Shown here: piece by piece, positions 26,629 to 42,431 of the stretch
Position numbering within the stretch: the first letter of the stretch is position 1
How the letters are laid out: each line of letters opens with the position of its first letter
From: Deltaproteobacteria bacterium
GTDB taxonomy: Bacteria > Desulfobacterota > Dissulfuribacteria > Dissulfuribacterales > DYLC01
DNA: 64,000 nt
Assembly (NCBI GenBank): GCA_028695735.1
Contig: JAQVIJ010000003.1
Location: 1 to 64,000 of the forward strand
Direction: 5' to 3'
The notes under the pieces: generated by a model
Seen by the model: the letters and a program-made list of their open reading frames with translations, nothing else
Told to the model about the DNA's origin: nothing
Database searches by the model: none
Made by a program: the position numbers and the translations under genes

Positions 26629-28182
26629 ATGAGACTTGGGCAAAAGATCTTTATCTATCTGGTTACTGGATTTGTCCTGATGGGTGTGATTTTTTTTATA
26701 TGGTTGCAAAATGTCCAGCACACCCTTGTCAGTGAGCAGCTGCGCAATCAGGCGGCAGGCATCTATCACTATATCATTCTCACACGGCAGTGGATCTCTG
26801 GTTATGGCGGCATCTATGTGCAGCATGAAGGCGGTTTTGAGCGTATTACGCCATCTGGTTTTATTGCCGAGCTCTCCCGTTACGGCCAGGACAAGCACCT
26901 GCCTTACATGGTCAAGGTGGCCGTGCCCAATGCCAGTAATCCACTTCATGCGCCGGATGTCTTTGAAACAAGGGCCATAGACCTGCTTCAAAGCGGCCGT
27001 GCCAGGGAGGTATGGGAGGTGGAAAGGGTCAAGGGAATGCCGGTCTTCAGGTATGGGGCGCCCCTTGTGTTTCAGACCGAGTGCCAGACCTGTCATGCCG
27101 GTCTCAAGACATCGGATGTCATGGGCGCCATCAGCATCTCCCTGCCAGCTACTGCCATCTATAACGAAGTGAGACAAAATATCTTTCAGTTTTTTGGTAT
27201 ATTTCTCTGTGTTTTGGCCGTTTTTCTGGGCCTTGCATGGACGATTTTACGTTTTTTTGTGCTTTCACCCCTGAGACAGCTTGCCTCCACAGCCGGACAT
27301 ATTCAAAACGGCGAGCTGGATGTGAGAGTGGATTTGAATATGAGCGAGGAGTGGAAGACCGTTTCCAGGAGTTTTAACAGTATGGTGGCCGCCCTGACGA
27401 ATCAGCAGAGAAACCTGGAAAAGGAGGTCAGAAGGGCTGTAAGTGAGCTGGAGTCTGCCTATCAACAACTGAAGGCCACTGAGCAGTACCGCCAGGACTT
27501 TTTTGCAAACATCACTCATGACCTGAAGACCCCCATCACGGCCATCAAGGGCGCCCAGGGAATTTTGGCAAAGAGGTTGAGTGATTCGGAACATGCCACC
27601 TACCTCGAGATCATTCAGAGAAATACAGAGAAGCTCCTCAAGATGGTAAAGGACATTCTGGCCTGTGCCAAGATAGAATCAGGCACCCTGGAGATACATA
27701 AAAGACAGGAGGATATAGCGGAGGTGCTGGAGGACGCCATCTTGATGATCATGCCTGTTGCATGGGAAAAGGGCGTGGAGATTCGCTATGAGGTGCCCGA
27801 AACCCCTGTATATCTCATGTGTGACAGGGGGCTTTTGGAGCAGGCCGTTACCAATCTGCTCTCCAATGCCCTTCGCTTTTCTCCCACGGGCGCATCTGTG
27901 GATGTGGGGATTGTAAAAAAGGGCGGGCAGGTTATGCTCACAGTACGAGACTATGGGCCTGGCATACCTGAGGACCAGAGGGGTTTGGTGTTTGAGAAGT
28001 TCTTCAGACGTCCCAATGAAAAGGCCGGAGAGGGCATGGGGCTTGGACTTGCCATTGCCCGTGGCATAGTGGCGGCCCACGGTGGTGCCATAACCATCTC
28101 CACCCCTGAACAGGGAAGTGGTTGCGTTTTTACCATTATATTGCCCGATGAAAAAATAGAGGGTAGCCATGGAACATGCTGA
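26629..28182 (+). CDS. sensor histidine kinase with a periplasmic c-type heme domain
   Basis: 517 residues: TM1 about 7-26, a periplasmic sensor of about 155 residues, TM2 about 185-211, HAMP about 212-265, a dimerisation helix with NITHDLKTPITAIKG (phospho-His297), and HATPase with N-box NLLSNALRFSP, DYGPGIPED and GMGLGLAIARGIV. The periplasmic part ends in CQTCH (152-156), a covalent heme c site, and starts with RQWISGYGGIYV, as in Tll0287-like/DUF3365 heme sensors. It should sense redox state or a diatomic gas. It overlaps the response regulator gene by 14 bases. Confidence 0.92.
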   Translation: MRLGQKIFIYLVTGFVLMGVIFFIWLQNVQHTLVSEQLRNQAAGIYHYIILTRQWISGYGGIYVQHEGGFERITPSGFIAELSRYGQDKHLPYMVKVAVPNASNPLHAPDVFETRAIDLLQSGRAREVWEVERVKGMPVFRYGAPLVFQTECQTCHAGLKTSDVMGAISISLPATAIYNEVRQNIFQFFGIFLCVLAVFLGLAWTILRFFVLSPLRQLASTAGHIQNGELDVRVDLNMSEEWKTVSRSFNSMVAALTNQQRNLEKEVRRAVSELESAYQQLKATEQYRQDFFANITHDLKTPITAIKGAQGILAKRLSDSEHATYLEIIQRNTEKLLKMVKDILACAKIESGTLEIHKRQEDIAEVLEDAILMIMPVAWEKGVEIRYEVPETPVYLMCDRGLLEQAVTNLLSNALRFSPTGASVDVGIVKKGGQVMLTVRDYGPGIPEDQRGLVFEKFFRRPNEKAGEGMGLGLAIARGIVAAHGGAITISTPEQGSGCVFTIILPDEKIEGSHGTC

Positions 28183-28858
28183 TATCCTTGTCATAGAAGA
28201 CGACAAAGACATTCGAAAGGTCCTCAAGGACCAACTGGAGTTGGACGGCTTCTCCATTCTGGAGGCGGCCTCAGGCACAGAAGGGATGTATATATTTAAA
28301 AAAAGGCCTCCCGCCCTCATTCTATTGGACCTGAACCTTCCAGACCTGGACGGCATCAAGCTGTGCCAGATGATTCGTAATATCTCTGATGTGCCCATTA
28401 TCATGCTTACGGCGCGTGATGCCTTGGCGGACAAGGTGCGCGGTTTTGAGTGCGGGGCCGACGACTATCTGGTAAAACCCTTTGAATATCTGGAACTCAA
28501 GGCGCGTATTCTGGCGAATCTGCGCAGAAGGGCGGCCGCCCAAAAGGACGAATTGATATTTGAAAACCTCAGAATCTCGCTGAAAACAAGGGAGGTCTTT
28601 TTGAACGGCCAGGCTGTTCCCCTGACCCGTAAGGAGTATGACTTGCTGGAGTTGTTTGTAGTACAGCCCAACCGGGTGCTGGAGCGGGAATACATTGTGA
28701 GGCAACTCTGGCCCAACGGTGAGGTCTATGCCTGGAGCAGGGCCTTGGACGTCCACATTCGAAGACTGCGTCAGAAGATAGAAGCTGACCCGGAACGACC
28801 GCGGTTTATTGTGACACACCCAGGGGTGGGATATCGTTTTCAGACATCGCGGGATTAG
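28169..28858 (+). CDS. OmpR/PhoB-family response regulator
   Basis: 229 residues. The receiver domain has the acidic pair Asp11-Asp12, phospho-acceptor Asp54 in ILLDLNLPDLDG, the MLTAR switch threonine and VKPF lysine. The C-terminal winged helix (about 130-228) ends with PGVGYRFQ, typical of DNA-binding OmpR members. It is coupled to the heme-binding kinase and is its obvious partner. Targets are not shown by sequence; the siroheme protein 16 bases downstream is probably in the same operon, and the hcp-HAO cluster 2.7 kb on is a plausible target. Confidence 0.95.
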   Translation: MEHADILVIEDDKDIRKVLKDQLELDGFSILEAASGTEGMYIFKKRPPALILLDLNLPDLDGIKLCQMIRNISDVPIIMLTARDALADKVRGFECGADDYLVKPFEYLELKARILANLRRRAAAQKDELIFENLRISLKTREVFLNGQAVPLTRKEYDLLELFVVQPNRVLEREYIVRQLWPNGEVYAWSRALDVHIRRLRQKIEADPERPRFIVTHPGVGYRFQTSRD

Positions 28859-28874
28859 TCAAACCATAGAGCAT

Positions 28875-29519
28875 ATGTCGAATACCATTCAAAGATATCA
28901 GTTGACCTTTTGTGCCGGTGCAGACGGCTGCCATGAGAGGGCGGTCTTCTCCAGGGATTTTCACTCAAGACTTGCAACCCTATTGGAGGAGCTGTTTACC
29001 GGCCCCGATGGCCTCGCTGAAACGGCAGGACATGGGAAAAAGACCCACGGCGGTTTTCGTGTGGCGGTCTCTGACTGCCCCAATGCCTGTTCCAGGCCGC
29101 AGATCGTCGATATCGGGCTCATAGGCGCCAGTGAACCCCTTGTGACAGATGCCCAGTGTAAGGACTGCGGCGGCTGTGTGGAGGCATGTAAGGAGCAGGC
29201 CATAACCTTCTGGGATGGCGTCAGCTTCCCCATCATAGACGATGCCCTGTGTGTGCGATGCGGGGCATGTATTCGAGCCTGTCCAAGGGGTACCCTGCAG
29301 GAGCTGAGACACGGCTATCGCATTCTGGTGGGCGGCAGGCTGGGCAGGCATCCGCAATTGGGGACCGAGCTTTCAGGCATTTATGACGAGACAGAATCCC
29401 TTGAGCTGGTGCGTCGCATTGTCTCATGGTATTTGGCCAATGCCCGAGTGGGCGAGCGGCTGGCGGATGTGTTGAATAGGAATGCGAATGCCCTGAAGGA
29501 GATTCTAAAAAAGACATAG
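28875..29519 (+). CDS. small siroheme-type/ferredoxin iron-sulfur protein
   Basis: 214 residues. The first half has both cysteine pairs of a coupled siroheme-[4Fe-4S] centre: C-x5-C (CAGADGC, near 13-19) and C-x3-C (VSDCPNACSRP). The second half has two [4Fe-4S] ferredoxin motifs (CKDCGGCVEAC and CVRCGACIRACPRG). The layout matches the C-terminal half of sulfite and nitrite reductase subunits such as AsrC, but it lacks the N-terminal half that holds substrate residues. It may be an electron carrier or a partial reductase. Its place behind the heme kinase and regulator suggests redox control. Confidence 0.85.
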   Translation: MSNTIQRYQLTFCAGADGCHERAVFSRDFHSRLATLLEELFTGPDGLAETAGHGKKTHGGFRVAVSDCPNACSRPQIVDIGLIGASEPLVTDAQCKDCGGCVEACKEQAITFWDGVSFPIIDDALCVRCGACIRACPRGTLQELRHGYRILVGGRLGRHPQLGTELSGIYDETESLELVRRIVSWYLANARVGERLADVLNRNANALKEILKKT

Positions 29520-30389
<870 letters not shown>

Positions 30390-30399
30390 GTTACATCGA

Positions 30400-30477
30400 A
30401 TGCGAATACTAATTGCAGTTTTATTTACGGCTCGGAAAGAACAAAAGGACAGACACATTCCTGAACAACTTTTTTAA
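30400..30477 (+). pseudogene. 5' remnant of a second gene cassette
   Basis: Ten bases after the attC a frame opens ATGCGAATACTAATTGCAG (MRILIAVLFTARK), which looks like the start of a secreted protein. At about 30436 it runs into a repeat (AAGAACAAAAGGACAGACAC) found twice more downstream and stops at 30475-30477. The cassette seems to be cut off by the repeat array. Confidence 0.5.
30437..30459. repeat. 23-bp repeat C, copy 1
   Basis: AAGAACAAAAGGACAGACAC, then ATT; identical copies at 31102-31124 and 31298-31320. In the later copies it joins repeat B to repeat A. Confidence 0.8.
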
Positions 30478-30573
30478 CTAAATCTCCTGGGGCGGCAGCG
30501 GTGAAGCATTTGTTCCATGCGGCGCATAACTGCCAAGGAAGGAGGGGCGGTACAGACTCATCGTCATTGCGAG

Positions 30574-30600
30574 CCTGTCTGCGTGCAACGCACAGGCAGG
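30574..30600. repeat. 27-bp hairpin repeat, copy 1
   Basis: CCTGTCTGCGTG-CAA-CGCACAGGCAGG forms a near-perfect hairpin with G-U pairs and a CAA loop. An identical copy is at 58209-58235, more than 27 kb away. Confidence 0.85.
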
Positions 30601-30618
30601 ACGGCGATAGCCGCCGAA

Positions 30619-30646
30619 GTAGGGGCGACCGGCCGGTCGCCCCTAC
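30619..30646. repeat. 28-bp perfect palindrome
   Basis: GTAGGGGCGACCGG followed by its exact reverse complement CCGGTCGCCCCTAC. No spacer. It lies inside the repeat island between the 27-bp hairpin and repeat B copy 1. Similar GTAGGGGCGA palindromes are dispersed repeats in many environmental bacteria (family knowledge, not checked). Confidence 0.9.
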
Positions 30647-30658
30647 ATTCTTTGTACA

Positions 30659-30711
30659 GGGGATTGCTTCGCTTCGCTCGCAATGACAACCGCCTGTACC
30701 ATCGCAAGAAC
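30659..30711. repeat. repeat B, copy 1
   Basis: GGGGATTGCTTCGCTTCGCT, then CGCAATGACAACCGCCTGTACCATCGCAAGAAC. Copies: about 31055-31107 (same length) and about 31207-31302 (with a GC-rich insertion of about 43 bases). The GATTGCTTCGCTTCGCTCG core is a widespread dispersed element. Confidence 0.8.
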
Positions 30712-30967
30712 ACTGCAAAACTCCATGTCCAGAACGGGTGCCCTATCCATTCCTGATGTAATTTCACTAATGACGGATTGACCTGCTGGAATAATGAGCG
30801 GCGTTTCTGCCAATAAAAATCGTAGAATTGGCCTTTACCCTCTGTTAACCAAAGTTCAAAGGATATGTGGTCTTTTTGAAGCGTCGTTTACAGTTGGGCG
30901 TGGGGTTCCGGAGGGGCGAGGGTAGCCGGTGTTTGTGGAATAGGCGCCATGGAGGGCGCCGGCCCCA

Positions 30968-31374
30968 CATTACCGCCAAGGAGGGCGGTTATGTGGGGCA
31001 TGAAACAAATATCGGCTGCCCTCGCCCACAAAAACAAAAAAACATGTTATTAGTGGGGATTGCTTCGCTTCGCTCGCAATGACAACCGCCTGTACCATCG
31101 CAAGAACAAAAGGACAGACACATTACCGCCAAGAAGGGCGGTTATGTGGGGCATGGAACAAATGCCGGCTGCCCTCGCCCACAAAAACAAAAAACATGTT
31201 ATTAGTGGGGATTGCCTCGCTTCGCTCGCCTCGGCGCGAGCGCCCTTCTGGCCGAGGCCTCGGCGCGTGGCGCAATGACAACCGCCTGTGCCATCGCAAG
31301 AACAAAAGGACAGACACATTTTCCGCTAGGGAAGGGCGGTTATGTGGGGCATGGAACAAATACCGGCTGTCCTC
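30968..31374. repeat. imperfect tandem array of A-B-C repeat units
   Basis: Three units begin at 30968, 31121 and 31317 with CATTACCGCC (or CATTTTCCGC). Each has a short hairpin (CCGCC..GGCGG), GGTTATGTGGGGCATG, AACAAAT, a CGGCTG(C/T)CCTC segment, and a CCACAAAAACAAAA-type stretch. Units one and two continue with repeat B and the 23-base repeat C. Spacings are 153 and 196 bases, the difference being the insertion in the second repeat B. No gene is credible within. Confidence 0.75.
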
Positions 31375-31501
31375 CCCAAAAACAAAAAATCATGTTATAA
31401 TATTTGCAATATCATTCAATCATCTTGGCTGCATTGGTTTCCAACAGAAATTATTACTCTTATGGTAAATTCAATAGTGAAATTTTGTAATTGAGCCTTT
31501 C

Positions 31502-31515
31502 TTGACTTAAGTCAA
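31502..31515. promoter_or_regulatory. HcpR/FNR-type operator of hcp
   Basis: TTGACTTAAGTCAA is a perfect 14-bp palindrome of the TTGAC-N4-GTCAA form described for CRP/FNR-family HcpR regulators in deltaproteobacteria. Its centre (31508.5) is 41.5 bases before the start inferred from the -10 box, an ideal class II activator position. The regulator gene is not in the window. Confidence 0.8.
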
Positions 31516-31537
31516 GGCGCATTACCCCTTGTGCTGT

Positions 31538-31543
31538 TATCAT
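31538..31543 (+). promoter_or_regulatory. -10 box of the hcp promoter
   Basis: TATCAT, 5 of 6 matches to TATAAT; no independent -35, as expected when an activator bound at the palindrome replaces it. Transcription should begin near 31550, giving a leader of about 60 bases. Confidence 0.6.
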
Positions 31544-31611
31544 TGGAATCAACATTCTTAAATACGATGCAAATCGTGAAGTCAATAATCCCATGTAAAG
31601 GAGAATTCAAC

Positions 31612-33243
31612 ATGTTTTGTTTTCAGTGCGAACAGACGGCAAAGGGCGAAGGTTGCAAAATAATGGGTGTGTGCGGCAAGACAGCCGATGTGGCCGCCCT
31701 TCAGGACCTATTGATGTATGCCCTAAAGGGGCTGTCAGTGGTGGCCACAGAGGGCCGCAGGGTGGGTGTGGTGGACAGAAATGTCAATGTATTCACCTGT
31801 GAGGCCGTGTTTTCCACCCTTACCAATGTGGACTTTGATCCAGCCCGCATCGAGGCCTTGATTCGAAAGGCCGTGGAGCTGCGGGAGCAGTTGAAGGCCA
31901 AAGTCAAGGCCGCAGGCGGTAAGATCAATGAATCCATGGACGCCGTGAGTTTTCAGCCGGCTTCTGATACGGCAGGCCTGGTAAAACAGGGCGAAGAACA
32001 CGGTGTGCTCTCCAACGGCGGTATCGACCCTGACATCCGTTCCCTGCGCGAGACATTGGTCTATGGGCTCAAGGGTGTGGCCGCCTATGCCGATCACGCC
32101 CAGATTCTGGGGCAGGAGGACGACAAGGTCTATGCCTTTATTCATGAGGGATTGGCCGCCACTCTCAACAAGGACCTGACCCTCAATGACTGGGTGAATC
32201 TGGTGCTGCGCTGTGGTGAGGCCAATCTGCGGGCCATGGAGCTTCTGGATGCAGGAAACACCTCCACCTACGGCCATCCCACTCCCACAAAGGTGCCCCT
32301 GGGACACAAGAAGGGAAAGGCCATTCTGGTCTCCGGCCATGACCTCAAGGACCTGGAGGAGATTTTGAAACAGACCGAGGGCAAGGGAATTTATGTCTAT
32401 ACACACGGAGAGATGCTTCCCTGCCACGGATACCCAGGTTTGAAGAAATATGCCCATTTCTATGGCCATTATGGCACCGCCTGGCAGAATCAGGCCAAGG
32501 AGTTCGACAAGTTCCCTGGGGCCATTGTGATGACCACCAACTGCATTCAAAAGCCACTGGAGACCTACAAGGCCAATATCTTCACCAGCGGCCTGGTGGG
32601 CTGGCCTGGTGTCACTCACATTCAAAACAGGGACTTTACTCCGGCCATTCAAAGGGCCCTGGAGCTTTCAGGTTTTGCCGAAGACGAGGACAAGGGCTAT
32701 GTCATGACCGGTTTTGCCCGCAATGCAGTGCTTTCAGTGGCAGACAAGGTCATAGAGGCAGTCAAGGCCGGAAAGATAAGGCACTTCTTTTTGGTGGCGG
32801 GCTGTGACGGCGCCAAGCCAGGCAGAAACTACTACACCGAGTTTGTGGAGAAGGTGCCCCAGGACTGTATTGTGCTCACACTGGCCTGCGGAAAGTTTCG
32901 TTTCTTTGACAAGGACCTGGGCGATATCGGCGGTATTCCAAGGCTTTTGGACATCGGACAGTGCAACGATGCCTATTCAGCCATTCAGATAGCAGTGGCC
33001 CTGGCCAATGCCTTTGGTTGCAGCGTGAACGAGCTGCCCCTCTCTTTGGTGCTCTCCTGGTATGAGCAGAAGGCGGTGGCCATTCTTCTGACCCTTTTCC
33101 ATCTTGGAATCAAAAACATCAGGCTTGGGCCGAGTCTTCCAGCCTTTATCACGCCCAATGTCTTAAATGTCCTGGTGCAGAACTACAACATAAGGCCCAT
33201 TACCACGCCTGATGAGGACCTGAAGGCGATTCTCAACAAATAA
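31612..33243 (+). CDS. hcp: hybrid cluster protein (hydroxylamine / NO reductase)
   Basis: 543 residues. The N-terminal cysteines Cys3, Cys6, Cys15 and Cys21 (CFQCEQTAKGEGCKIMGVC) hold the cubane cluster. The C-terminal half has the hybrid-cluster ligands, e.g. GYPGLKKYAHFYGHYG, VAGCDGAKPGRNYYTEF, LACGKFRFF and GQCNDAYSAI. Hcp reduces hydroxylamine in vitro and is a high-affinity NO reductase or S-nitrosylase in E. coli. ATG 31612 is preceded by AAAGGAG; the longer frame reading from 31531 is leader. It is the first gene of a four-gene cluster under an FNR/HcpR-type box. Confidence 0.97.
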   Translation: MFCFQCEQTAKGEGCKIMGVCGKTADVAALQDLLMYALKGLSVVATEGRRVGVVDRNVNVFTCEAVFSTLTNVDFDPARIEALIRKAVELREQLKAKVKAAGGKINESMDAVSFQPASDTAGLVKQGEEHGVLSNGGIDPDIRSLRETLVYGLKGVAAYADHAQILGQEDDKVYAFIHEGLAATLNKDLTLNDWVNLVLRCGEANLRAMELLDAGNTSTYGHPTPTKVPLGHKKGKAILVSGHDLKDLEEILKQTEGKGIYVYTHGEMLPCHGYPGLKKYAHFYGHYGTAWQNQAKEFDKFPGAIVMTTNCIQKPLETYKANIFTSGLVGWPGVTHIQNRDFTPAIQRALELSGFAEDEDKGYVMTGFARNAVLSVADKVIEAVKAGKIRHFFLVAGCDGAKPGRNYYTEFVEKVPQDCIVLTLACGKFRFFDKDLGDIGGIPRLLDIGQCNDAYSAIQIAVALANAFGCSVNELPLSLVLSWYEQKAVAILLTLFHLGIKNIRLGPSLPAFITPNVLNVLVQNYNIRPITTPDEDLKAILNK

Positions 33244-33314: not shown

Positions 33315-33578
33315 ATGAAATGCCCTGGACAAGACAGCCGTTATTGGAAGGGTGACGCCATCTATGAGATGAAGTGTCCACACTGTGGTGCGGGCATGGA
33401 GTTTTTCAAGGACGACCCTGTAAGAAGGTGTTCCAACTGTGGCAAACAGGTGCCCAATCCCAAACTGGATTTTGGTTGCGCCACATATTGCCCCTATGCC
33501 AAGGAGTGTCTTGGCAGCATATCCTTTGGAGATAAGGAATCAAAAAATGAAACGGATGCGAAAGATCATCGAGATTAA
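33315..33578 (+). CDS. small cysteine-rich zinc ribbon-like protein
   Basis: 87 residues. A leading CPGQDSRYW is followed by CPHCGAGMEFF and CSNCGKQVPNP, the four cysteines of a zinc ribbon, then CATYCPYAKECLG, a second cysteine cluster that could bind another metal or an iron-sulfur cluster. It sits between hcp and an iron-sulfur protein gene and overlaps the latter by 32 bases, so it probably acts with them in electron transfer or as an assembly factor. The exact role is unknown. GGAG precedes the ATG. Confidence 0.8.
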   Translation: MKCPGQDSRYWKGDAIYEMKCPHCGAGMEFFKDDPVRRCSNCGKQVPNPKLDFGCATYCPYAKECLGSISFGDKESKNETDAKDHRD

Positions 33579-34293
33579 CGAAGAATTGTGCAACGGCTGT
33601 GGTCAGTGTGTGCTGTCCTGTGCCGAAGGCGCCATAGCCATTATCGACGGCAAGGCCCGACTGGTGTCGGAGCGCTATTGTGATGGCCTTGGCGCATGTC
33701 TGGGTGAGTGCCCCACAGGCGCACTGAAGGTGGTGGAACGGGAGGCGGAGGATTTCGACGAACAGGCCGCCCATGAGTATGTCAATGCCCTGAAGGCCAA
33801 ACAACAGGCCCAGCCCATGGCCTGTGGCTGTCCTTCCACTCAAATAAGGCAGTTTAGCCCCGTTTCTTCCTCAATTAGCCCGTGTGAGGCGGCCAATCGG
33901 CCTGTATCTCACGAGAATACCCGGTCCTGTCTCAGTCACTGGCCTGTGCAGATTCGGCTCATTCCACCTTCGGCCCCGTTTTTGAAGGGCGCCCATCTCT
34001 TGATCGCAGCAGACTGTGTGCCAGTGGCCTATCCTGCCTTTCATACACACCTGCTCAAGGGTAGGACCGTTATGGTGGGCTGTCCCAAGTTCGATGACGC
34101 CCAGGAGTATGTGCAGCGCTTTGCCCAGATATTCAAGACAGCACAGATTCAGTCGGTAACCTTGGCCATTATGGAGGTGCCCTGTTGTTCGGCTATGGCA
34201 GGCATTCTGAACAAGGCCATGGAGGCGGCAGGGGTGACAGTGCCTGTCAAAAAGGTGGTGGTTACCGCACGCGGGGAGGCCCAAGGCCTTTAG
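33547..34293 (+). CDS. iron-sulfur protein with two ferredoxin motifs and a C-terminal domain, Hcp partner
   Basis: 248 residues. The N-terminal part binds [4Fe-4S] through CNGCGQCVLSC and CDGLGACLGECP (the last lacks one cysteine of a canonical motif). A proline- and serine-rich linker (about 95-140) leads to a C-terminal domain with LIAADCVPVAYPAFH, VGCPKFDD and VPCCSAM, whose cysteines could hold another cluster. Such proteins often adjoin hcp in anaerobes and may deliver electrons to it. AAGGAA lies before the ATG; an earlier start is less likely, as it would overlap far into the previous gene. Confidence 0.85.
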   Translation: MKRMRKIIEINEELCNGCGQCVLSCAEGAIAIIDGKARLVSERYCDGLGACLGECPTGALKVVEREAEDFDEQAAHEYVNALKAKQQAQPMACGCPSTQIRQFSPVSSSISPCEAANRPVSHENTRSCLSHWPVQIRLIPPSAPFLKGAHLLIAADCVPVAYPAFHTHLLKGRTVMVGCPKFDDAQEYVQRFAQIFKTAQIQSVTLAIMEVPCCSAMAGILNKAMEAAGVTVPVKKVVVTARGEAQGL

Positions 34294-34434: not shown

Positions 34435-35736
34435 ATGTTTGAAATCAAAAAGATGTGTGTAGCTGGGACGATTTCATTGGCGTTTTTGGTGGGTTCTTTT
34501 GGTTTGGCGGCTGCCAAGCCCTCTGCCTGTGAGGACTGTCACGCCAAGATATCGCCAAAGATGGTGCAGGATTTTAACAGGGGCAAGATGTCTCAACATC
34601 TCACCTGTGAGGCCTGTCATGGCAGTGAACACCAGAATGAAAAGGATGTGGCCAAGGCCAAGCTCCCCACCATTGAGACCTGCAAGCAGTGCCACCCACA
34701 GCAGGCCAAGCAGTATTTAGACGGCAAGCATGCCCTTGGTCTGGTGGCCTTGAATGCCATGCCGTACACTCATATGCAGCCCAAGGCCTTTATGGAAGGC
34801 CAGAAGGGCTGTGGCGGCTGCCATACCTTGGGGTTGGCTACTCAGAAGGATAGGGAGACTGAGGGCCGCAAGTACTACAAATATGGCATGGACTGTCAGA
34901 ATTGTCATACCAGGCACGCCTTTTCCAAGGCCGAGGCCTCTGAGCCTGAGGCATGTATGACCTGTCACATGGGCTTTGACCATCCCCAGTGGGAGATGTG
35001 GTCAGGTTCCAAGCACGGCGTGACCTATCTGATGAACCGCACCATAGACCCCAAAAACAAGGACAGGGCGCCCAAGTGCCAGACCTGCCACATGCGTAAC
35101 GGCGACCATCGTGTCTTTTCTGCATGGGGCTTTTTGGCTGTGAGACTGCCTGAGGACGATGCGGAGTGGATGGGTTATCGGGCGACCATTCTAAAGGCCC
35201 TGGGTGTCCTGGACCCTGACGGCAAGCCCACAGGCAGACTGGATGTGGTCAAGGCAGGTAAGGTGGCTCGTCTGACCAAAGAGGACTTTGAGGCCGAGAG
35301 AAAGCGCATTGTGGAGGTATGTTATCAGTGCCATTCCCCCAACTTTGCCGATGAAAACATCAAGAATGCCGACAAGATGGTGAAGGAGGCGGATAAACTC
35401 TTTGCTGAGGCCATCGAGGTGGTGGCTGGTCTGTATAAGGACGGCATCATTCAGCAAAAGAAGGGGCAGCCCTATGCCTATCCGGATCTCCTGACCTTCT
35501 ATGATGTGAACACCAAGGTGGAGGAGGTGCTCTACGAGATGTTCATGGACCACAGAATGAAGGCATTCCAGGCCAATTTCCACATGAACCCCGATTATTC
35601 CACCTGGTATGGCTATGCCAAGATGGTGAAGGATGTGGTGGAGATCAAGGAATTGGCGAAGGAGATGAGGGCTATGCATGCTGAGGGCAAGGCCCCTGAA
35701 AAGGCATCTCAACCTGCTGCCAAGACAAAGAAGTAA
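34435..35736 (+). CDS. octaheme hydroxylamine oxidoreductase-like cytochrome c
   Basis: 433 residues with a signal peptide (about 1-27) and eight CxxCH heme motifs, with heme-binding histidines at 36, 62, 87, 130, 158, 178, 219 and 300. This is the HAO/ONR family: in family members heme 4 (here CGGCH) is the catalytic one. The epsilon-HAO subgroup of anaerobes is thought to reduce nitrite or hydroxylamine to ammonium; which direction applies here cannot be seen. No membrane anchor follows, so it is a soluble periplasmic enzyme. TAGGAGGAGATC precedes the ATG. It is probably co-regulated with hcp upstream. Confidence 0.9.
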   Translation: MFEIKKMCVAGTISLAFLVGSFGLAAAKPSACEDCHAKISPKMVQDFNRGKMSQHLTCEACHGSEHQNEKDVAKAKLPTIETCKQCHPQQAKQYLDGKHALGLVALNAMPYTHMQPKAFMEGQKGCGGCHTLGLATQKDRETEGRKYYKYGMDCQNCHTRHAFSKAEASEPEACMTCHMGFDHPQWEMWSGSKHGVTYLMNRTIDPKNKDRAPKCQTCHMRNGDHRVFSAWGFLAVRLPEDDAEWMGYRATILKALGVLDPDGKPTGRLDVVKAGKVARLTKEDFEAERKRIVEVCYQCHSPNFADENIKNADKMVKEADKLFAEAIEVVAGLYKDGIIQQKKGQPYAYPDLLTFYDVNTKVEEVLYEMFMDHRMKAFQANFHMNPDYSTWYGYAKMVKDVVEIKELAKEMRAMHAEGKAPEKASQPAAKTKK

Positions 35737-35788
35737 TGTTTTCGAGGGAATAGCCAATACATGGCTGTTTCCGGTTGATGAATAACCA

Positions 35789-35832
35789 CGGTGTTCTCGA
35801 GTGCGTAAATGCACTTGGGAACACCGTTTTTT
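35789..35832 (+). terminator. Rho-independent terminator after the HAO-like gene
   Basis: CGGTGTTC (35789-35796) pairs with GAACACCG (35819-35826), with a second inner stem (GTGC..GCAC) in the loop, then six T. Ends the hcp-HAO cluster. Confidence 0.93.
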
Positions 35833-36237: not shown

Positions 36238-36267
36238 TTACACGAAGTAAAAATGGAGATGATGTCC

Positions 36268-38667
36268 ATGACCGATGCACTGACTGACAAGGCAAGGGAG
36301 CTGGCGCAATACCTGGGTTTTGATGAGGCGGCAGCGAGTGAGAAGCTTTCATACCTGTCTTTGACTCCAGAAGAGATGGCCCTTGTAAAGAGGGTTGGAG
36401 AGCTTGCAAGGACACAAGATACTGCCTGGCTTTGGGACAGATTTTATGCCCACTTACAGGGTTTTGAGAAGAGCAGTCATTTTTTGCAGGACCGTGATGT
36501 GCTGGAACGGCTTAAACTGGCTCAAAACAGGCATTTTTTAGAGCTGCTTTCGAGTGATTATTCCCTGGATTTTTTTGTGGAACGCCTCAAGCTGGGCATT
36601 CGCCATGACCTTGAGGGCATAGATTACTGTCTATATGCCGGCGCATATGGAAAGTTTTTGGACCTGGTAATGGAGTTTGTGGCAAGGCATACTCCGGCCG
36701 AGCTGCTCTTGCCCACCTTGAAGGCGGTTTGTAAGGTTGTTCTCCTTGACCTGAATTTGGGCAGTTATAGCTATTTCGGCGTTCGAGAAAAGAGGCTGCT
36801 GGAGTCCTCAATGACCCTTGAACGGGTAACCCGTGCGTTTCAGCTCATTCATGAAATAAATCAACTTATTGTAAGGGTTACTGACATAGACGACCTCCTG
36901 CAGAGGGCCACTCAGCTAATCGTGGAACAAGGTGGTTTCGCCTTGGCCTGGATCGGAATGGTGGATGAAAAGACAGGCCGTATCCTGCCCAAGGCCGCCC
37001 ATGGTCTTATGGCATATCTTGATGGCATTCAGGTCTCCATTGACTCGAACCTACCCGAGGGCAGAGGTCCCACCGGCACTGCCGCCAGAGAGAAAAAGGT
37101 GGTGGTTATTCAGTCCACCGATGAAGATTTGCGCTTTACTCCATGGCAGGAGAGGGCACTGACGTTTGGCATTCACTCCTCAATAGCCTTGCCCCTGGTG
37201 ATAGCAGGTGAGGCCAAGGGCACCTTGAATATCTACTCCACGCGTTACGATGCATTCATTGATATCGAGATCTCCCTGCTGGAAGAGGTGGCGGGCGACA
37301 TCGCCTATGCCATAGACCACATGGAAAAGCAAGCCCAGATAGATAGGCTTTTGTTTTGGGATGCACTTACCGGCTTGGGGAATTACAATCAGTTCACTTC
37401 CTGGCTTGCCTCTTGTCTGCAGAGCCAGATGTCTGGGGAGTTGCAAGTCTTGGTGATGGTTTTGGATATAGATCACTTCTCATCCATAAATCATGCCCTG
37501 GGTACATCTAAAGGTGATTTAATCCTTCAGGAGATCGCAAAAAGGCTCAAGGTCTTTACAGAAGGGATTGGAGATGCAGCAAGATTGGGTGCCGATGAAT
37601 TTGGTGTGGCAATGGAGAACCATGGAGAAAATCCACTGAATATTGCCATGGCACTTCAGACAAGTGTGTTGCAGCAGCCCATAAGGTTGGATGGTCATGA
37701 GATAAATGTCACTGCATCCGCAGGACTGGCTGTCTTCCCTCAAGACGGTCAGCAGACCTCCCAGCTTATTGATAGGGCCAAGATGGCCCTTACAGAGGCC
37801 AAAAAAAGAGGCGAGGGACGGCTTTACTTCTATTCCCAGGGGTTATTCGAAAAGAATCTCCAAAAAGTAGAATTAGAGAGGGAACTGAAGAGGGCCATAA
37901 CGAATAGGGAGTTCGTGCTCTTTTTTCAGCCCAAGATAGACCTCCTGGCTCGAGAGATTTCAGGGTTTGAGGCATTGATTCGTTGGCAGCACCCGGAAAA
38001 GGGGTTGGTGCAGCCGGGTCAATTCATTCCCTTTTTGGAGGAGTCTGGATTGATAATAGATGTGGGTTGGTGGGTCATGGAGGAGACCATTCGGCATGTG
38101 AAGGAAAGCCCCATCTGTAAACAAAACAATTTCTTCATCTCCTTCAATGTCTCCATCAAGCAGTTTGATCAGCCTGACTTTGTGGAACGATTTATTTCCA
38201 CGGTCAGGTCTTCAGGCGTGGCCTCAAATAAGCTTAAGATTGAGGTGACTGAGAGCCTGTTTATGCATAATGCCAAAGAGATTATTCGGCAGTTGACGCA
38301 GATACATACGGAAACGGGAATCCGTATCTCCATAGATGACTTCGGTACAGGGTATTCTTCCCTGCAGTATCTGAAGGATATACCTGCCTCGATTATCAAA
38401 ATCGATTACTCTTTTGTAAAGGGCCTGCCTGATGAACGGGACGATATCGAGATCATAAAGACCATTCTGCTACTTGCCCAGGGGCTCGGCAAAAGGACCG
38501 TGGCAGAGGGTGTAGAGACTCGTGAGCAGCTTGTCTTTCTTGCAGGGCTTGGAGTGAATGAGGGACAGGGTTTTTATTTCGCCAGGCCGATGCCAGAGGT
38601 GGAATGCATTAAGTGGATTCAGGACTACAGGCAGGAATCATATTTCTGGCCCAAAAGGTTCAAATAG
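36268..38667 (+). CDS. globin-coupled GAF-GGDEF-EAL cyclic di-GMP protein
   Basis: 799 residues. Residues 1-170 are a globin-coupled sensor domain, with the FLQDRDVLERLKLAQ and LKLGIRHDLEGIDY blocks; His113 is the probable proximal heme ligand. A GAF domain follows (about 205-350), then GGDEF (about 360-520) with a degenerate GADEF at 441-445, and an intact EAL domain (about 540-790: FEALIRW, IDDFGTGYSS, AEGVET). It is therefore probably an oxygen- or NO-controlled phosphodiesterase. ATG 36268 is preceded by GGAG; a start at 36253 is possible. Confidence 0.88.
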   Translation: MTDALTDKARELAQYLGFDEAAASEKLSYLSLTPEEMALVKRVGELARTQDTAWLWDRFYAHLQGFEKSSHFLQDRDVLERLKLAQNRHFLELLSSDYSLDFFVERLKLGIRHDLEGIDYCLYAGAYGKFLDLVMEFVARHTPAELLLPTLKAVCKVVLLDLNLGSYSYFGVREKRLLESSMTLERVTRAFQLIHEINQLIVRVTDIDDLLQRATQLIVEQGGFALAWIGMVDEKTGRILPKAAHGLMAYLDGIQVSIDSNLPEGRGPTGTAAREKKVVVIQSTDEDLRFTPWQERALTFGIHSSIALPLVIAGEAKGTLNIYSTRYDAFIDIEISLLEEVAGDIAYAIDHMEKQAQIDRLLFWDALTGLGNYNQFTSWLASCLQSQMSGELQVLVMVLDIDHFSSINHALGTSKGDLILQEIAKRLKVFTEGIGDAARLGADEFGVAMENHGENPLNIAMALQTSVLQQPIRLDGHEINVTASAGLAVFPQDGQQTSQLIDRAKMALTEAKKRGEGRLYFYSQGLFEKNLQKVELERELKRAITNREFVLFFQPKIDLLAREISGFEALIRWQHPEKGLVQPGQFIPFLEESGLIIDVGWWVMEETIRHVKESPICKQNNFFISFNVSIKQFDQPDFVERFISTVRSSGVASNKLKIEVTESLFMHNAKEIIRQLTQIHTETGIRISIDDFGTGYSSLQYLKDIPASIIKIDYSFVKGLPDERDDIEIIKTILLLAQGLGKRTVAEGVETREQLVFLAGLGVNEGQGFYFARPMPEVECIKWIQDYRQESYFWPKRFK

Positions 38668-40898: not shown

Positions 40899-42431
40899 AT
40901 GGGAAGATTTATCTGGTTATCTGTCTTTCTTGTGTTTCAGGTTTTGTGTTGCGGCAATCTGCTTGCGGAGCAGACTAAAACAAAGATAGCTGTCCTTGAT
41001 TTTACCGTGCAGGGCAAGGGGCTTGACCAGGACCTGGGCAAAATTGTTTCAGATTGGTTTATTACCTCGCTCGTAAAAAATGAAAGATTCGAGGTCGTGG
41101 AACGGGGGACACTCAAAAGAATTCTGGATGAGCAGGCGCTTGCCATGTCCGGCATTGTTGATGAACAGACAGCTACCAGGGCCGGAAAAATGCTTGGAGT
41201 CAATGTGTTGATTACCGGTTCAGTGGTAAGGCTTGGGGAGCGTATTGAGATTACGGCCCGCGGTATAGATATAGAAACCGCAGCAGTACTGGCTGCCGAG
41301 AGTGAAAAAGCCGAGAATCTCAATGGCCTCATGGATTCTGTAAATGAGTTGTCAGTCCGTCTTGTCAGGACATTATCTGGCATGTTGAGCAGGAATAGTC
41401 CGGCAAAACAACAGACAGGGTTTGTGCCGCAGGGCAAAACATCCATATTGCATCTCAGCGGTCTGGTCGCGTCTGAAAAGGCCTCCATATTCCATGATCC
41501 CAGGGTGCTCGGTCTCCTGCAGCAGCATGGCATGCTGATTGATATTGGTGTCGCAGGTTCCAGGGAAATGCTGTCCATGTCCGGGCATGGAGGTTATGAT
41601 TTCGTGTTTCCATCAGGCGGGTATCTTGCAAATGAGATAGCCAAAACCCATCATGCCGATCAGACATATAATATTTTTTATACACCTATAATTGTCGCCT
41701 CCTGGAAGCCTGTAGCCGATATTCTTATTGCCAATGGGGCGGTTGAAGAAAGAAACGGCGTCTATTATCTCAAGATGAGAAAGATTCTTCCCATGATTGC
41801 GGATGGCAAAAGATGGTCTGATCTCAGAAACAACAAGGCATATCCATCGGATAAGCCTATATTTATCACATCCACGGATGTGGCCACGTCGAACTCAGGG
41901 GCCATGTATCTCTCTATAGCCAGTTATGTCTCTAATGACAATAAGATGCCTGAAACGGACGGTGACATTGAACGGTTGTCGTCCATGGTGCAGAAATTTT
42001 TTACTAATCAGGGGAGCCAGGCTGTCTCATCAAAAGAACCTTTTGATGACTATCTTTCAATGGGAATGGGCAGAACCCCTATGGTCATTGCCTATGAATC
42101 GCAGTTCCTGGAGGCGGTTGCCAAAGGTGCCACTACTGCAGACATGGTGATGCTGTATCCTGAACCGACCATTTATGTGAAGGGTGTCGTTGTTCCATTG
42201 ACTGAGGACGGCAAAAAAGTAGGCGAGTTTCTTATGGAGGATGCTGCATTCAGCAAGATCGCGACAGAGTATGGCTATCACATAAAAAATGCCCGCCTAT
42301 TTCGTGAAACATTCAATGACAAAGGCGTCCAGTTGCCGGACAGCCTGATTTCTGTGATAAATCCTCTTAATATGAATGTGATGAATCGGATGATCACTAC
42401 GTTGACATCCGTCAAGAGCGCCGCAAGATAG
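40899..42431 (+). CDS. CsgG/FlgO-like domain fused to a solute-binding domain
   Basis: 510 residues with a signal peptide (about 1-24). Residues 28-160 match CsgG/FlgO-type outer-membrane assembly domains (KIAVLDFTVQGKGLDQDLG ... RFEVVERGTLKRILDEQ ... VLITGSVVRLGERIEI). Residues 180-500 look like a type II periplasmic solute-binding protein (YDFVFPSGGYLANEIA, TPIIVASWKPV, WSDLRN, FITSTDVATSNSGAMYL). This combination is unusual. It is 25 bases after the Cache protein, with AAAGGAG, and the two probably form one extracytoplasmic sensing or uptake pair. The ligand is unknown. Confidence 0.7.
   Translation: MGRFIWLSVFLVFQVLCCGNLLAEQTKTKIAVLDFTVQGKGLDQDLGKIVSDWFITSLVKNERFEVVERGTLKRILDEQALAMSGIVDEQTATRAGKMLGVNVLITGSVVRLGERIEITARGIDIETAAVLAAESEKAENLNGLMDSVNELSVRLVRTLSGMLSRNSPAKQQTGFVPQGKTSILHLSGLVASEKASIFHDPRVLGLLQQHGMLIDIGVAGSREMLSMSGHGGYDFVFPSGGYLANEIAKTHHADQTYNIFYTPIIVASWKPVADILIANGAVEERNGVYYLKMRKILPMIADGKRWSDLRNNKAYPSDKPIFITSTDVATSNSGAMYLSIASYVSNDNKMPETDGDIERLSSMVQKFFTNQGSQAVSSKEPFDDYLSMGMGRTPMVIAYESQFLEAVAKGATTADMVMLYPEPTIYVKGVVVPLTEDGKKVGEFLMEDAAFSKIATEYGYHIKNARLFRETFNDKGVQLPDSLISVINPLNMNVMNRMITTLTSVKSAAR

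Follow-up and report, generated by a model that had tools for sequence, protein, structure and literature searches.

The gene hcp encodes the hybrid cluster protein, an enzyme whose presumed task is to clear toxic nitrogen compounds. In the DNA analysed here, a stretch of 64,000 nucleotides that we call the window, hcp is preceded by the perfect palindrome TTGACTTAAGTCAA (31502-31515, centre at 31508.5) and, 22 bp past it, by a -10 box, TATCAT (31538-31543), both on the + strand and both as an earlier note had described them. The locus raises the question of whether this palindrome controls hcp and, if so, through which regulator. Judging from the sequence, we consider it highly probable that the palindrome is the operator within a class II promoter of the hcp operon activated by an HcpR-type protein, binding and induction both being predicted.

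The window holds nine perfect 14-bp palindromes where 3.9 are expected, so that a bare palindrome proves little and the case must rest on comparison. The significance of TTGACTTAAGTCAA is that it matches a published motif, stands before hcp, is conserved and keeps a fixed 22-bp spacing to the -10 box. Rodionov et al. (2004, PMC545781; 2005, PMC1274295) described HcpR as a CRP/FNR protein and, Desulfovibrio excepted, gave wyTTGACnnnnGTCAArw as the consensus of its sites ahead of hcp in delta-proteobacteria, and tc-TTGACTTAAGTCAA-gg fits this consensus at all positions except the last, a weak one. When three or fewer mismatches are allowed the window contains two copies of the motif, roughly as many as shuffled sequence, and the exact copy is found at hcp only.

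The promoter and the operon behind it

The arrangement is that of a class II promoter: the site is near -41.5, the -10 box follows 22 bp on, and a proper -35 element is missing. A search of the hcp leader for a sigma-70 -35/-10 pair found none (no 9-of-12 match), and a tandem-repeat scan of the leader revealed nothing. Class II sites of E. coli FNR are centred at -41.5 +/- 4 nt (PMC3688515), and there too the site takes the place of the -35 element with the -10 box 22 bp on. The two systems differ in the inner pair of the site, which is C/G here (TTGAC) and T/A for FNR (TTGAT), and in the regulator, our candidate not being an Fe-S FNR.

Transcription is predicted to start at 31550-31551. The operator centre is at -41.5 if transcription begins at C31550, 7 nt beyond the end of the -10 box; the conserved CA stands one base later in the window and points to A31551, which places the centre at -42.5. 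The exact -41.5 spacing claimed earlier is right for C31550 and, given the CA context, one base too strong. Two further features flank the operator: a GG abutting it downstream (31516-31517), of which G31517 lies at about -33, and an A/T-rich stretch (31480-31492) overlapping the zone from -63 to -58, which is a possible contact for the alpha-CTD.

The hcp gene itself (31612-33243, + strand, 543 aa; PF03063, NF003658/TIGR01703) starts at ATG 31612 behind AAGGAG, and because this start is conserved in relatives GTG 31531 was rejected. On the same strand follow genes for a small zinc-ribbon-like protein (33315-33578), conserved directly after hcp, and for a 4Fe-4S ferredoxin-type protein (33550-34293), and both are present after hcp in many named loci. 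The ferredoxin-type product is probably the FrdX of the literature; being conserved after hcp, it fits better than the product of the NIR_SIR/ferredoxin gene at 28875-29519, which we rejected for this role. The probable last gene of the operon (34435-35736, + strand) encodes an octahaem cytochrome c with eight CxxCH motifs that resembles HAO and hydrazine dehydrogenase (PF13447; NF052343 below cut-off), and among the loci looked at only G006 has it in the same position, with 84% identity. A strong intrinsic terminator with an 18-pair stem and a T-rich tail (35788-35827, + strand) probably closes the operon, and no comparable terminator was found between hcp and the octahaem cytochrome gene. 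The promoter thus probably drives hcp, the two small genes and the octahaem cytochrome gene.

The neighbourhood is of some interest in its own right. Just upstream, 26629-29519 appears to be a single operon for a histidine kinase (Tll0287-like domain with CxxCH), a response regulator and a NIR_SIR/4Fe-4S protein. The kinase is possibly a c-haem sensor, and no HcpR site was found before this operon. In several relatives a related NIR_SIR/ferredoxin gene lies directly before hcp, under an HcpR-type site. Here some 1.8 kb of repeats, both direct and inverted (29569-31392; units of 27-76 nt in up to three copies), part the upstream operon from hcp, and a BrnT toxin gene (29856-30350) lies among them. 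Immediately past the hcp operon, 36253-38667 encodes a Protoglobin-GAF-GGDEF-EAL protein, probably a gas-sensing cyclic-di-GMP enzyme beside NO defence genes.

Conservation of the site and of its spacing

We scanned the 400 bp upstream of hcp in 80 hcp loci from named genomes and found perfect TTGAYNNNNRTCAA in 59, with one mismatch in two more, the loci being related and the counts therefore not independent. The same pattern is present in 2 of 320 coding windows, and the reversed pattern in none of the 80 loci. The full 14-mer TTGACTTAAGTCAA recurs in G006 and G014, of the same order, and in G054, of the same phylum, while variants of it are found in G001, G008 and G015. Many members of one family have no site directly before hcp, which is explained by the ferredoxin gene that precedes hcp there: in relatives with this gene order the site is at the head of the operon, about 0.9-1.1 kb upstream of hcp, and most of these operon-head sites have a -10 box at 22 bp. 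In G011 we found neither the site nor a close HcpR relative. Two Bacillota loci (L130 and L139) have a CRP-like GTGA-N6-TCAC in place of the motif and keep the 22-bp spacing, to TAAAAT.

The arms of the site were chosen by the search itself, which leaves spacing, start, flanks and centre as the only features that are independent of it. We therefore aligned 60 loci on the site and scored the positions that had not been used for selection. TA is found at a spacing of 22 in 51 of the 60 loci, the best other spacing reaching 13, and TANNNT at the same spacing in 32 (at most 4 at any other). A CA start with A at the +1 that corresponds to -41.5 is present in 20 loci, and one base later in 12. The centre of the site is YTAR in 42/60. 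Just past the site, at the position matched by G31517 in the window, 51/60 have a G, compared to 10/60 for the mirror-image C; YTAR and this one-sided G are additional to the HcpR1 consensus as quoted. Upstream, positions -63 to -58 are A-rich (A+T 84% against 56% in the adjacent sequence), a zone in which a class II promoter would be expected to meet the alpha subunit.

We tentatively suggest that HcpR-type hcp promoters of the Desulfobacterota and some Nitrospirota may follow a fixed grammar beyond the operator, consisting of the YTAR centre, the G at about -33, the A-rich stretch from -63 to -58 and the -10 box at 22 bp. If so, they would amount to a stereotyped NO switch with nearly a single target, and the half of the operator closer to the promoter would add a contact, with sigma or with the wing of the regulator, that the distal half does not make.

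The same geometry bears on the direction of control. A site at -41.5 could block RNA polymerase as well as assist it, and in the model for HcpR2 of D. desulfuricans hcp is released when NO damages the cluster of HcpR2 (PMC5701242); an HcpR-bound site could on this precedent be the operator of a repressor. A -10 box at a fixed 22 bp without a -35 element is, however, the layout of an activator, and FNR sites in this position, -41.5, mostly activate (PMC3688515). Moreover, the hcp-frdX sites have been predicted from their position to be activating, and nitrite strongly induces hcp of D. vulgaris (PMC545781, PMC1274295). Repression is thus unlikely. Activation from a site that replaces the -35 element, as first proposed for this locus, agrees with a class II layout kept across species and with a leader in which no sigma-70 pair was found.

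The candidate regulator and its targets

The genome (2.22 Mb in 9 contigs, 97% complete) encodes two HTH_Crp_2 proteins. The first, at G000:C1:19551-20237, has the cNMP-binding domain PF00027 and the HTH_Crp_2 domain PF13545, with the recognition helix GTIPETLSR (E. coli FNR: GLTVETISR; CRP: GCSRETVGR), which carries the S/P180-E181-R185 combination. The HcpR motif of delta-proteobacteria has been tied to Ser/Pro180 with Glu181 in this helix (PMC1274295). The C1 protein has a single cysteine, none of the N-terminal cysteine cluster of an E. coli-type FNR, and is therefore not an FNR. An HcpR-type CRP/FNR gene, which the earlier note had advised looking for, is thus present; of the HcpR/FNR-type label the HcpR half is supported and the FNR half is not.

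All of the best 29 relatives of the C1 regulator in kindred genomes share G-T-x-P-E-T-x-S-R. In 23 of the 80 named loci a relative is encoded on the strand opposite to hcp and no more than 5 kb from it, two of these having A or Q in place of the P; in this genome the gene is not beside hcp. The C1 protein reaches 55% identity to near-hcp regulators at most, compared to about 35% at most to other CRP/FNR proteins. A regulator tree, built without named reference HcpR sequences, left the deep branches unsettled, and its bootstrap had not converged. We also counted co-occurrence over 60 genomes: an HcpR relative (E < 1e-35) accompanies hcp in 36 of the 42 genomes that have this gene and is present in 3 of the 18 that lack it (Fisher p = 5.5e-7, uncorrected for kinship). 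In G035, G037 and G045 the site is present and a close HcpR relative was not found, G045 being especially incomplete.

The existence of the second HTH_Crp_2 protein (G000:C7:13532-14176) and the closeness of the FNR site, TTGAT-N4-ATCAA, to the motif would suit a scheme in which the operator is bound by this protein or by a genuine, oxygen-sensing FNR. In the helix of the C7 protein, S-G-Q-S-K-R-T-V-A-R, the E181 associated with TTGA/TCAA sites is nevertheless missing, the C1 protein combines the expected helix with the lack of an FNR cysteine cluster, and no third HTH_Crp_2 protein was found in the genome, which makes such a scheme very improbable. A chance palindrome, with hcp transcribed from some other promoter, ordinary or unrelated, is hardly credible even with nine such palindromes in the window, given the site at 59 of 80 hcp loci, the fixed -10 spacing and a leader in which no ordinary sigma-70 promoter was found.

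The C1 regulator would control few other genes. The genome contains only two copies of TTGACNNNNGTCAA, of which the one at hcp alone is intergenic; the second copy, at 42402, is inside the end of a CDS and was not taken as a target. The composite of site and -10 box (at most one mismatch) is found in this genome at the hcp locus alone, and over 60 genomes it matches 71 times and its reversed control 6 times, where a palindromic site may count on both strands. With TTGACNNNNGTCAA elsewhere only in a gene and the composite only at hcp, the HcpR regulon here probably has one main target, the hcp operon. TTGACTTGAATCAA at C9:60836, before a polyferredoxin-type gene (spacing 21, TATCCT), is a weak candidate for a second target, and C2:516708 and C5:219832 were rejected, both being in genes. 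We also rejected TTGACAACCGTCAT at C1:28478 before sat, which is more simply read as sigma-70 TTGACA-17-TATAAG; this sequence (L018:1501-1514, equal to G000:C1:28478) overlaps a good sigma-70 promoter of sat. In Desulfovibrio, sat is reportedly a predicted HcpR-repressed gene.

The earlier note had held that its reading would fall if no other target shared the palindrome, and taken literally this is the outcome of the genome scan, in which the one other copy is in a gene. Shared targets are a poor test because HcpR regulons with one target have been reported for cyanobacteria and for several anaerobes (PMC1274295); the conservation of the site across species is the better guide. Our results support that first reading in substance.

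Mechanism and meaning

We propose that a dimer of the C1 HcpR-type protein binds TTGACTTAAGTCAA, in the position of a -35 element, and that the bound protein contacts RNA polymerase (sigma region 4 and alpha) and so promotes transcription from TATCAT at about 31550/31551. By analogy with published HcpR work (PMC1274295, PMC5701242), NO or nitrite would be the inducer. The signal is likely to be NO formed from nitrite, which HcpR would sense probably through haem, and the NrfA-type nitrite reductase encoded at C6:43609-44928 is a likely source of this NO. The transcript would probably run from hcp through the zinc-ribbon and ferredoxin genes to the octahaem cytochrome gene and end at the terminator at 35827.

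The closest known system is the delta-proteobacterial HcpR (HcpR1) regulon, which shares the motif, hcp with its ferredoxin, the P180/E181/R185 helix and the activating position. It differs in that there is effectively one target in the genome here and that the octahaem cytochrome gene is probably part of the same operon. Control of hcp by a CRP/FNR-type protein in response to NO or nitrite is also found with Desulfovibrio HcpR and with HcpR2 of Clostridia, Bacteroides and Porphyromonas, although their operators differ (TGTGA-N6-TCACA and GTAAC-N4-GTTAC) and HcpR2 belongs to another branch of the family (PMC1274295).

The hcp promoter thus adds a new and well-supported case to a kind of nitrosative-stress switch that has been described before. 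It links the hcp gene of an organism whose lineage has been little studied to a regulator known from nitrosative stress and yields a prediction of the hcp transcription start to nearly one base. The cross-species alignment describes an HcpR/hcp promoter with a conserved class II architecture and extra fixed positions, and in this organism the octahaem cytochrome is probably placed under the same control as hcp.
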